Shown here piece by piece: positions 22,811 through 57,083 of a stretch of DNA of 64,000 bases (its first letter is position 1; the number at the start of each line of letters is the position of its first letter). The stretch lies in contig JASGVX010000143.1 in NCBI GenBank assembly GCA_030054735.1, forward strand, positions 1 to 64,000, given 5' to 3'. The DNA is from Methanobacteriota archaeon (GTDB lineage Archaea; Halobacteriota; Methanosarcinia; Methanosarcinales; Methanosarcinaceae). The translations under genes and the position numbers were made by a program. A model generated the notes under the pieces. That model searched no databases. It was not told the origin of the DNA and saw only the letters and a list, made by a program, of their open reading frames with translations.

Positions 22811-24688
22811 GTTGAGAAGTAGGTTCCACTAAAACAAGGATTGAAACGGTATACGCCCTTATTGGGGGAAGAAGAGGTTTTGCGTTGAGAAGTAGGTTCC
22901 ACTAAAACAAGGATTGAAACTAAAAGAATTTTTTACTTCTTGCCATACCAACTTGTTGAGAAGTAGGTTCCACTAAAACAAGGATTGAAACGCTATGCAC
23001 ATGTTCTCTCCATTGTATAGAGAAAAGTTGAGAAGTAGGTTCCACTAAAACAAGGATTGAAACTTTTCTTGGTGGGTCCGGGTATTGGAAGATTCGGAGG
23101 GTTGAGAAGTAGGTTCCACTAAAACAAGGATTGAAACGGCATCAGTATTGCGGGGGTTTTCCGCTTCCCGCAAGTTGAGAAGTAGGTTCCACTAAAACAA
23201 GGATTGAAACCCTGGATTTCTCCTGTAAACGTTTTTGAATTTTTAGTTGAGAAGTAGGTTCCACTAAAACAAGGATTGAAACCTCAAATAAAATTAACTC
23301 ATTAAGAAGGGTTTCCCGGTTGAGAAGTAGGTTCCACTAAAACAAGGATTGAAACCTCTAAGCCCTATTTGTTCTAAAATATGCGGATCTGGTTGAGAAG
23401 TAGGTTCCACTAAAACAAGGATTGAAACAATTTCTCTGCTAGGAGAGCTACCGTAAAGGCCTGCTCGTTGAGAAGTAGGTTCCACTAAAACAAGGATTGA
23501 AACCTTTTTAAAAATCAATCCCCAGAGATACAACAATCGTTGAGAAGTAGGTTCCACTAAAACAAGGATTGAAACTTTTTTCCGACAGCAATTTCATGCT
23601 ACCGAGAAGGGGTTGAGAAGTAGGTTCCACTAAAACAAGGATTGAAACGTTTTTCTTCTTCCTCTTGGGCTTTTTGCCACTTTTTGTTGAGAAGTAGTTT
23701 CCACTAAAACAAGGATTGAAACTTCCCATTATTATGAGACCGTGCCTGTATAACTGGAGTTGAGAAGTAGTTTCCACTAAAACTAGGATTGAAACTTTTG
23801 TTTCTTTTTTTAGGGAGACCATCTTCTTAATTGTTGAGAAGTAGTTTCCACTAAAACAAGGATTGAAACATTAATGCCTCTAAAAAGGCATTAGTCTCCC
23901 TCCAAGTTGAGAAGTAGGTTCCACTAAAACAAGGATTGAAACTATCATTACTGTCCTCATTTGCAAATCTGTACAGTAGTTGAGAAGTAGGTTCCACTAA
24001 AACAAGGATTGAAACCTAACCATGCCTGCGCTGGGCGAGGCTCGGAAGCCGTTGAGAAGTAGGTTCCACTAAAACAAGGATTGAAACTTTCTAACCATCC
24101 TAATAAGATGATTAGGGCCCCTGATGTTGAGAAGTAGGTTCCACTAAAACAAGGATTGAAACGACGGACCTAATAGCAATGGAGCCGGACTCTCCGGAGT
24201 TGAGAAGTAGGTTCCACTAAAACAAGGATTGAAACTCTAGAATCCCTGCCCCTAGCAGACCAACTGCTAGGAGTTGAGAAGTAGGTTCCACTAAAACAAG
24301 GATTGAAACTCTAAAAACTTTCTTCCTACGGGGACTTTGTTTTGTTGTTGAGAAGTAGGTTCCACTAAAACAAGGATTGAAACCATCGAAAGAACTTCTT
24401 AAAAGAGAGAGAGAACTCCGTTGAGAAGTAGTTTCCACTAAAACAAGGATTGAAACTTTCTGCTGGTTTTGGCTTACCGCCAAAGAATACTGTTGAGAAG
24501 TAGTTTCCACTAAAACAAGGATTGAAACGCGACAATAACTAACTGAAAAAATGGCTCTATATATCGTTGAGAAGTAGTTTCCACTAAAACAAGGATAGGT
24601 TCATATGACCCTTCATTTCTCTAGTTATTGATTTTCAATATCTTTTTTATTTGTCTAGGGGTCATATGAACCAATAGTGGATTGAAAC
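22811..24688 (+). CRISPR. CRISPR array, 25 repeats of 37 nt, 24 spacers
   Basis: The repeat is 37 nt, begins GTTGAGAAGTAGGTTCC and ends AAGGATTGAAAC; the ATTGAAAC end is typical of archaeal type I and III systems. Repeat starts are 22811, 22884, 22955, 23027, 23101, 23174, 23246, 23319, 23392, 23467, 23539, 23612, 23686, 23759, 23833, 23906, 23979, 24051, 24126, 24199, 24273, 24347, 24420, 24492 and 24566. Spacers are 34-38 nt and all differ. Repeats 1-12 and 16-22 have GTAGGTTCC; repeats 13-15 and 23-25 have GTAGTTTCC; repeat 14 also has AAAACTAGG. The last repeat is split by an 82-bp insertion. No cas gene lies in the window, so subtype cannot be set and interference proteins must be encoded elsewhere. 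Confidence 0.98.
24597..24678. mobile_element. 82-bp inverted-repeat element inserted in last CRISPR repeat
   Basis: The final repeat reads ...ACAAGGAT, is interrupted, and resumes as GGATTGAAAC. The insert carries perfect 14-bp inverted arms, GGTTCATATGACCC (24598-24611) and GGGTCATATGAACC (24659-24672), around a 47-nt A/T-rich centre, plus six extra bases on the right. GGAT occurs on both sides and may be a 4-bp target duplication. It encodes nothing and looks like a miniature inverted-repeat element or a foldback. Confidence 0.7.
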
Positions 24689-26169: not shown

Positions 26170-26421
26170 GCCGAAATCTCAAAGATTATTAACATGCCTG
26201 CAGATGCCGGAAAGGAATATATTGAGCAAGCTCTGATTTATGCCTGGAAGCAGAGATTAAAAGGGCTTACATTCTACAGGACAGCAGGCAGGCAGACAGA
26301 CAGGAAGCAGACAGACAGCAGGCAGGAAGCAGACAGCAGGCAGCAGACAGGAAGCAGACAGACAGCAGGCAGGCAGACAGGAAGCAGACAGCAGACAGAC
26401 AGCAAGCAGTTCTCAACGTGA
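26170..26421 (+). pseudogene. ribonucleotide reductase (class II) C-terminal remnant
   Basis: The frame reads AEISKIINMPADAGKEYIEQ, then ALIYAWKQRLKGLTFYRTAG. This aligns with the C-terminal SKTINLPxDAT...AYxLGxKGxTVYR block of adenosylcobalamin-dependent ribonucleotide reductase. Only about 35 codons remain. The rest of the open frame is a low-complexity run of Arg, Gln, Thr, Asp and Ser made by the CAG/ACAG-rich repeat. The catalytic barrel is absent upstream, where the cyclophilin gene lies, so it is a decayed fragment and not a functional gene. Confidence 0.65.
26279..26410 (+). repeat. CAGGCAG/ACAGACAG/GAAG microsatellite-like array
   Basis: About 130 bp are built only from short units such as CAGACAG, CAGGCAG and AGGAAG, shuffled in imperfect order, directly after the ribonucleotide-reductase remnant. 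This simple-sequence expansion has a composition very unlike its AT-rich surroundings and probably arose by slippage after the gene was lost. Confidence 0.85.
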
Positions 26422-55560: not shown

Positions 55561-55574
55561 TTATATATATATAA
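55561..55574 (+). promoter_or_regulatory. TATA box upstream of tandem-repeat leader
   Basis: TTATATATATATAA predicts transcription from about 55595, so the tandem array at 55605-55797 would lie inside the 5' leader of the membrane-protein gene. Confidence 0.5.
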
Positions 55575-55604
55575 CCGTGTAAAAGAAAGTCCCATTCAGC
55601 TATA

Positions 55605-55797
55605 AACAAAAGGGTGTTAAAAACAAAAAGGTGTTAAAAACAAAAAGGTGTTAAAAACAAAAAGGTGTTAAAAACAAAAAGGTGTTAAAAACAAAAAGGT
55701 GTTAAAAACAAAAGGTGTTAAAAACAAAAGGTGTTAAAAACAAAAGGTGTTAAAAACAGGTGTTAAAAACAAAAGGTGTTAAAAACAAAAGGGTGTT
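55605..55797 (+). repeat. tandem array, 12 GGTGTT units of ~16-17 bp
   Basis: The unit is GGTGTTAAAAACAAAAA, with versions one or two A shorter and one unit of only 12 bp. GGTGTT occurs 12 times between 55612 and 55797. Each unit holds a GTG and a GGTG that could mimic a start codon or weak ribosome site. The array overlaps the possible GTG start (55776) of the following gene. Confidence 0.92.
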
Positions 55798-56171
55798 TAG
55801 AGGGAGGTTTTTTTCTGGAAGTTAGCTATACTCGGAGTTCGTTCAGGACTTATCTATACGATATTCGTTTTATTATCCTATTCTATGTGATCGGGGATTG
55901 GGCATCTACATTTTATGCTCTGCCGCTTGGTAAAGAGTATAATCCCGTTCCTGCAATGATCCTGGAGAATTATGGAATTTACCATCTTCTCCTGATAAAA
56001 ATTGCTTTTATCTTTCTGCTCTTTTACGTGGCCCCGATAATTAAAACATCAAATGGACGATGGGAGCTTACAAAACATATAATTGAGTCCATAGGTGTTC
56101 TGGTTACTGTAAACAACCTCATGGTGGTCTGGTATGGGATCAGTCTTATAGAGACTCTGGGGCTAGTCTGA
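55776..56171 (+). CDS. small membrane protein (DUF5658-like)
   Basis: Up to 131 residues with three to four membrane segments. FYVIGDWASTFYALPLGKEYNPV, with Asp and Glu-Tyr-Asn-Pro at the membrane face, and LLIKIAFIFLLFYVAP match the small DUF5658-like proteins of archaea. The start is uncertain. The longest frame begins with a GTG inside the last tandem-repeat units. A strong GGGAGG lies at 55802-55807, 7-8 nt before an in-frame CTG (55815), so translation may really begin at that non-standard codon, giving 118 residues. The function is unknown. Confidence 0.65.
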   Translation: MLKTKGCLEGGFFLEVSYTRSSFRTYLYDIRFIILFYVIGDWASTFYALPLGKEYNPVPAMILENYGIYHLLLIKIAFIFLLFYVAPIIKTSNGRWELTKHIIESIGVLVTVNNLMVVWYGISLIETLGLV

Positions 56172-56366: not shown

Positions 56367-57083
56367 TTACCTGGTTTTTGCATATACGAAGCAGTCATAG
56401 TATTCTTTCTCTATCCTGTGGATCTTTTTTGCTATCCCTTCTTTTTCGTATCCGCACTTCTGTGCAACCTGCTCACTAGCGATATTTCGAATATCCATCA
56501 TGATAGCAATTCTTTGCAGTTTCAATTCGTCAAAACCAATTTTTTCAAGCTGTTTTACAGCTTCGGTTGCAATACCCTGTCCCTGGTAAGCCTTATCAAC
56601 AAAATAACCAATTTCCCCCACCCACGGCCTGTGCAGGTCGATCCGGATCCCGCAGTCCCCAACCAGTTCTCCGTCATAAATGATTGAATAGTTATGTTCA
56701 AAGTTGTTTTTCCTTATCGCATAGTTTGTCTTCAGGAACCATGTTTCGTCCTCAAGGGTTTTTATAGGGACTTCTATAAACTCATAGTCCAGATGTGTAA
56801 GAATTCCAAAAAACCGGTCAGCATCTGAGACTTCCTGAAGGCGAATGCTTACTTGAGGCATGATGAGAAATTGAGCTTCCTTCATGAAAAACGTTTTTAA
56901 TGCATTTCTGATTTTTCTATTCTGGTCCTGTTTAGATTTTTTATCTGATTTTTTGCTAGGCCATGTCCCTGTTAGGTTCAGCCACAACCTGTTTACATCT
57001 CTTTTTATCTGATTTGAATCTCTTTTTATTTTGTTTGGATCTCTTTTTATTTTGTTTGGATCTCGTTTTTGTATTTTTCCCAT
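56367..57083 (-). CDS. GNAT acetyltransferase with repeat-bearing N-terminus
   Basis: Up to 238 residues. The C-terminal ~160 residues are a GNAT acetyltransferase of the RimJ/RimL type: SIRLQEVSDADRFFGILTHL, GDCGIRIDLHRPWVGEIGY and the acetyl-CoA loop VDKAYQGQGIATEAVKQL, then RIAIMMDIRNIASEQVAQKCG. The N-terminal ~65 residues are basic and contain four degenerate KRDPNKI units coded by 21-bp DNA repeats. Family members normally begin near Met67 or Met75 (56885 or 56861), so the extension may be a real basic arm or untranslated DNA. Substrate unknown, perhaps a protein N-terminus or an antibiotic. Confidence 0.75.
   Translation of the reverse strand: MGKIQKRDPNKIKRDPNKIKRDSNQIKRDVNRLWLNLTGTWPSKKSDKKSKQDQNRKIRNALKTFFMKEAQFLIMPQVSIRLQEVSDADRFFGILTHLDYEFIEVPIKTLEDETWFLKTNYAIRKNNFEHNYSIIYDGELVGDCGIRIDLHRPWVGEIGYFVDKAYQGQGIATEAVKQLEKIGFDELKLQRIAIMMDIRNIASEQVAQKCGYEKEGIAKKIHRIEKEYYDCFVYAKTR

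Follow-up and report, generated by a model that had tools for sequence, protein, structure and literature searches.

What does a run of twelve near-identical short repeats do directly in front of a conserved archaeal gene: does it tune the expression of that gene, or has it merely grown within the leader, and where does the protein begin? The array lies on the forward strand at 55604–55797 of the window (the whole 64,000-nucleotide stretch of DNA that was analysed, from a genome of the methanogenic archaeon Methanosarcina), between a TATA box and a GGGAGG motif, and is a minisatellite of 12 units of about AAACAAAAAGGTGTTAA. TRF reports a period of 17, 11.9 copies and a score of 304 – the top score in the window, CRISPR arrays counted too. 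Twelve GGTG motifs (starting at 55613, 55630, 55647, 55664, 55681, 55698, 55714, 55730, 55746, 55759, 55775 and 55792) mark the units, matching the twelve ~17-bp units of the first-pass annotation; in this genome, assembled in 149 contigs, the exact unit count is uncertain. Successive motifs are 13, 16 or 17 nt apart (in order: 17, 17, 17, 17, 17, 16, 16, 16, 13, 16, 17) and, as that annotation had pointed out, no spacing is a multiple of 3.

The internal units are alike except for the length of the A-run and one short unit, and the ends of the array also diverge; since the units are otherwise identical, the expansion appears to be recent. Chance is not its source, because Markov-shuffled sequence of a relative yields no array with a score of at least 50. 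The array sequence was found nowhere else in its own genome or in 30 other Methanosarcina genomes, and the unit is lineage-specific: none of those 30 genomes holds an array of it, and the sister lineage holds one copy. We considered a dispersed repeat family and rejected it, the unit being no commoner outside the array than a reversed control pattern. Two other repetitive regions occur in the window: at 22884–24461 arrays that combine the repeat GTTGAGAAGTAGGTTCCACTAAAACAAGGATTGAAAC with unique spacers, evidently CRISPR arrays, and at 26276–26409 an intergenic GACA-rich array of about 15-nt units.

The gene downstream of the array (55815–56171, forward strand) encodes a predicted membrane protein of 118 aa, with orthologs in most Methanosarcina genomes searched, mostly at 71–93% identity. 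It is under purifying selection: dN/dS is 0.19 to the sister and 0.04–0.13 to others. The window gene has a branch length of 0.062 (0.014 for the sister), and relaxed selection or a pseudogene was considered; branch counts of 9 synonymous and 5 nonsynonymous changes lend this no support. The Pfam profile DUF5658 (PF18902) matches residues 39–113 of a 131-aa frame (E 1.2e-4) with 23.2 bits, slightly short of the 25.2 bits that form the curated cut-off, and the protein is called DUF5658-like. The structure model is helical and of modest confidence (pLDDT 69), and a literature search returned no paper on DUF5658. Gene order is conserved and includes a DNA-alkylation-repair gene as well as a GNAT gene downstream. 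The GNAT frame has a 21-bp array of its own (56990–57070, KRDPNKI repeats) in an N-terminal part that is missing from most orthologs; translation of GNAT probably begins further in, and this array may lie in the GNAT leader. In a related genome (G007) a different array stands directly before the same GNAT gene (L065:8410–8490).

A comparison of the leaders of 27 Methanosarcina orthologs defines the setting into which the array has been placed. Close orthologs are laid out alike, with a promoter block that resembles CTCTATCTTAGTTTCTTACGTTTATATAATC and a leader that is short, then a G-rich ribosome site, a T-run and the start; promoter and G-rich site are conserved across about 25 Methanosarcina species. 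The window's TATA box (an TATATATATATAA run at 55562–55574, forward strand) aligns with the ortholog TATA at a fixed place. The distance from TATA to start is 62–71 nt in 21 of the 27 orthologs, these being the ones in which the motif script located the box; it missed four others, whose box can be recognised on inspection. In the window the distance is about 250 nt, and in one further ortholog, L005, it is 253 nt. The spacing of 19–22 nt between TATA and transcription start in a related methanogen (PMC5378194) would put the start of the transcript near 55593–55597. Because the box keeps its place in orthologs, the comparison supports the first-pass view that the twelve units belong to the predicted transcribed leader. 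Long leaders are normal in related methanogens (PMC5378194). The leader RNA is A-rich; it has no match in Rfam up to an E of 0.1 and folds no better than shuffled sequences (z −0.43), and on these two grounds a structured RNA leader or riboswitch was discarded.

The ribosome site and the start codon are equally well placed by the orthologs. GGGAGG (55802–55807, forward strand) is followed by seven T and then by an in-frame CTG at 55815, 17 nt from the end of the array. The spacing of 7 nt, together with a run rich in G that orthologs have at this position, agrees with the strong site that had been proposed from the sequence alone. The duplex that it would form with the 3′ end of the 16S rRNA has an energy of −11.2 kcal/mol, against −6.5 for the repeat unit. 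The anti-Shine-Dalgarno sequence used, GGATCACCTCCT, was read in two related genomes, a search for 16S in the window's own assembly having found none. Ortholog starts in Methanosarcina are nearly always TTG, aligned with CTG 55815, one codon upstream of it, or both; the exceptions are L044 (the second copy in Methanosarcina sp. Ant1), which has ATG, L027 (a broken copy) with ATG-TTG, and L023/L042, also of Ant1, where CTG alone occupies the start position, independently of the window. A weak TTG start is kept genus-wide beside a very strong G-rich ribosome site (orthologs L002–L027), a pairing which suggests that a controlled rate of initiation may be selected. The sister (L002/L031) reads GGGAGGTTTTTTTG-CTG, with a usable TTG directly before the CTG; its TTTTTTTGCTGG corresponds to TTTTTTTCTGG in the window, the two differing by one base next to the T-run, and since the window is without that one G the upstream TTG is gone and the CTG is left. 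In M. mazei, Ribo-seq is reported to show a CTG start for 5% of the small ORFs that were unannotated (PMC11456600). CTG 55815 is most likely the inherited initiation site, with CTG in place of the usual TTG.

Two other accounts of the start have to be set against this. The protein could begin within the array, at the in-frame GTG of the penultimate unit (55776–55778, forward strand), which is, as the first-pass annotation stated, the only in-frame ATG, GTG or TTG upstream, and which an automatic gene caller would pick. The product would carry a 13-residue, repeat-derived N-terminal extension, but a corresponding coding extension is absent from every ortholog, the conserved ribosome site would come to lie within coding sequence, and both L005 and L007 have a frame that closes 4 codons ahead of the conserved start. 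We regard this start as very unlikely; the conserved ortholog start and the Shine-Dalgarno site coincide at the CTG, which is why we place initiation there, at one of the two candidate starts named at the outset. Downstream the next standard in-frame start is a GTG at codon 25 (55887), within a predicted helix. A somewhat less improbable, though still doubtful, suggestion is that the lone CTG reflects an assembly error, the true TTG preceding it by one codon as it does in the sister, or else a stage in the decay of the gene. That TTTTTTTGCTGG and TTTTTTTCTGG differ by a single base adjoining a T homopolymer, in a genome of 149 contigs, is compatible with an error, and the long branch of the window gene with loss of the start. 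Against both stand the open frame, purifying selection (dN/dS 0.19), the same branch counts of 9 synonymous and 5 nonsynonymous changes, and the independent origin of a CTG-only start in Ant1. Either way, only the start codon would be altered and not the reading of the array.

The origin of the array can be followed in the sister lineage. At the array site L002/L031 has a single unit, AAACAGAAAGGTATTAA, and the flanks are the same in both: L002 reads CTATAAACAGAAAGGTATTAAGAGGGAGG, with one unit, and the window CTATAAACAAAAGGGTGTTAA...GTTTAGAGGGAGG, with twelve. Because the sister has one unit copy, the array is a lineage-specific expansion inside an inherited leader, and most simply it would have grown from a segment of that leader after the two lineages split. 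A leader array is present in 2 of the 27 orthologs: the window gene and L005 (genome G011), where the same place is taken by an array that is more degenerate and has units of about 11 nt. Further orthologs have arrays farther upstream, outside the leader. The extents of the two leader arrays are nearly equal (−211 to −18 in the window, −211 to −13 in L005), a match that might point to selection acting on the length of the leader. An ancestral array common to both was rejected: the units differ, and L002, L007 and L008, single-copy at this site, fall between them in a gene tree that is weakly supported in this separation. Independent origin is preferred.

How unusual such an array is can be judged from the genus. 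Methanosarcina is exceptionally rich in short-unit satellites, with up to 89 per Mb according to a published survey (PMC6749651). In 400 kb of G007 we found 153 arrays of period 7–30, and none in shuffled controls; 54 score at least 100, 12 at least 200 and 2 at least 300, so that the window array stands at the strong end of this range but not alone. An array falls within the last 100 nt upstream of 17 of the 143 ORFs with free upstream DNA (about 12%, an estimate, since ORF starts were assigned mechanically). The 2 of 27 leader arrays among the orthologs are in line with this background. Leader arrays being rare in the orthologs and common upstream of genes in a relative, the array need have no particular link with this gene, and it is not special.

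This bears on the claim of the first-pass annotation that we do not uphold, namely that unit number is a possible device for varying expression. Stated in full, the array would be a contingency element: changes in unit number would alter the length of the leader, the short GTG frames upstream or the AGGTG decoys that resemble a Shine-Dalgarno site, and translation would be tuned from cell to cell as a result. Several observations are congenial to the idea. The near-identical units imply recent change in copy number, every unit has AGGTG or GGGTG (AGGTG pairing with the anti-Shine-Dalgarno sequence at −6.5 kcal/mol), upstream GTG frames of 7–21 codons are present, and an array of similar extent, with AGGT in it, lies in the leader of another ortholog; in Helicobacter pylori a variable leader repeat tunes expression of tlpB (PMC8295292). 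Yet the array lies upstream of the start codon, so that copy number can never shift the frame of the gene, given the CTG start; the in-array GTGs have an SD-like motif only 10–14 nt upstream, a longer spacing than the 7 nt at GGGAGG; the leader is without such an array in 25 of the 27 orthologs; and similar arrays, everyday features of Methanosarcina intergenic DNA, precede about 12% of the ORFs that were sampled in one relative. Together with a fold no better than that of shuffles, these points make tuning by unit number improbable. One specific version – that the evenly spaced AGGTG motifs of an unstructured leader are weak ribosome-docking sites which feed or divert small ribosomal subunits near a weak CTG start, slippage in unit number thereby tuning the output of a membrane protein – we consider highly improbable. 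The AGGTG of the unit pairs weakly with the anti-Shine-Dalgarno sequence, and nothing observed requires a regulatory role, though the units might conceivably bind ribosomes as decoys or standby sites.

The reading we prefer, at a probability of roughly three in four, is that of a minisatellite born of slippage or recombination in a conserved leader, with translation starting at the CTG and an effect on expression, if any, that is probably small. Replication slippage or unequal recombination would have amplified one segment of ~17 nt, AAACAGAAAGGTATTAA in the sister, that belongs to the ~40-nt leader inherited by this conserved DUF5658-like membrane-protein gene. Transcription would still begin about 20 nt past the conserved TATA box, so that the array is transcribed and the leader measures about 220 nt; the ribosome would bind the conserved GGGAGG and initiate at CTG 55815, the place of the usual TTG, a one-base deletion beside the T-run having presumably removed the alternative TTG directly upstream. 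As the whole array is placed downstream of the predicted transcription start and upstream of the ribosome site, slippage would alter the length of the leader only, the reading frame being unaffected, and any effect of copy number on expression would probably be small and incidental. The locus is an ordinary minisatellite next to a slightly unusual start codon. It shows that a minisatellite can grow until a conserved archaeal leader is about five times as long and yet leave the promoter, the ribosome site and the gene intact, and it offers a clear comparison for CTG at a start which most of the genus has as TTG. With arrays in some 12% of sampled upstream regions in a relative, their effect on expression is a fair question for the genus as a whole.

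Among the matches of our literature search there was no paper on phase variation by leader repeats in archaea. Two published systems come nearest. The tlpB leader repeat of H. pylori, target of the small RNA RepG (PMC8295292), is likewise a repeat in a 5′ leader that leaves the frame unchanged; it is a G-run with a regulatory partner, whereas the present unit is an A-rich 17-mer with no known partner. The short-unit satellites of Methanosarcina surveyed by Subirana and Messeguer in 2019 (PMC6749651) come from the same genus, have units of <30 nt and are arranged head-to-tail. In the part of the survey open to us those arrays are not placed relative to promoter, Shine-Dalgarno site or start; the window array, in contrast, has been assigned to a predicted leader, and the sister species shows the same site with one copy.
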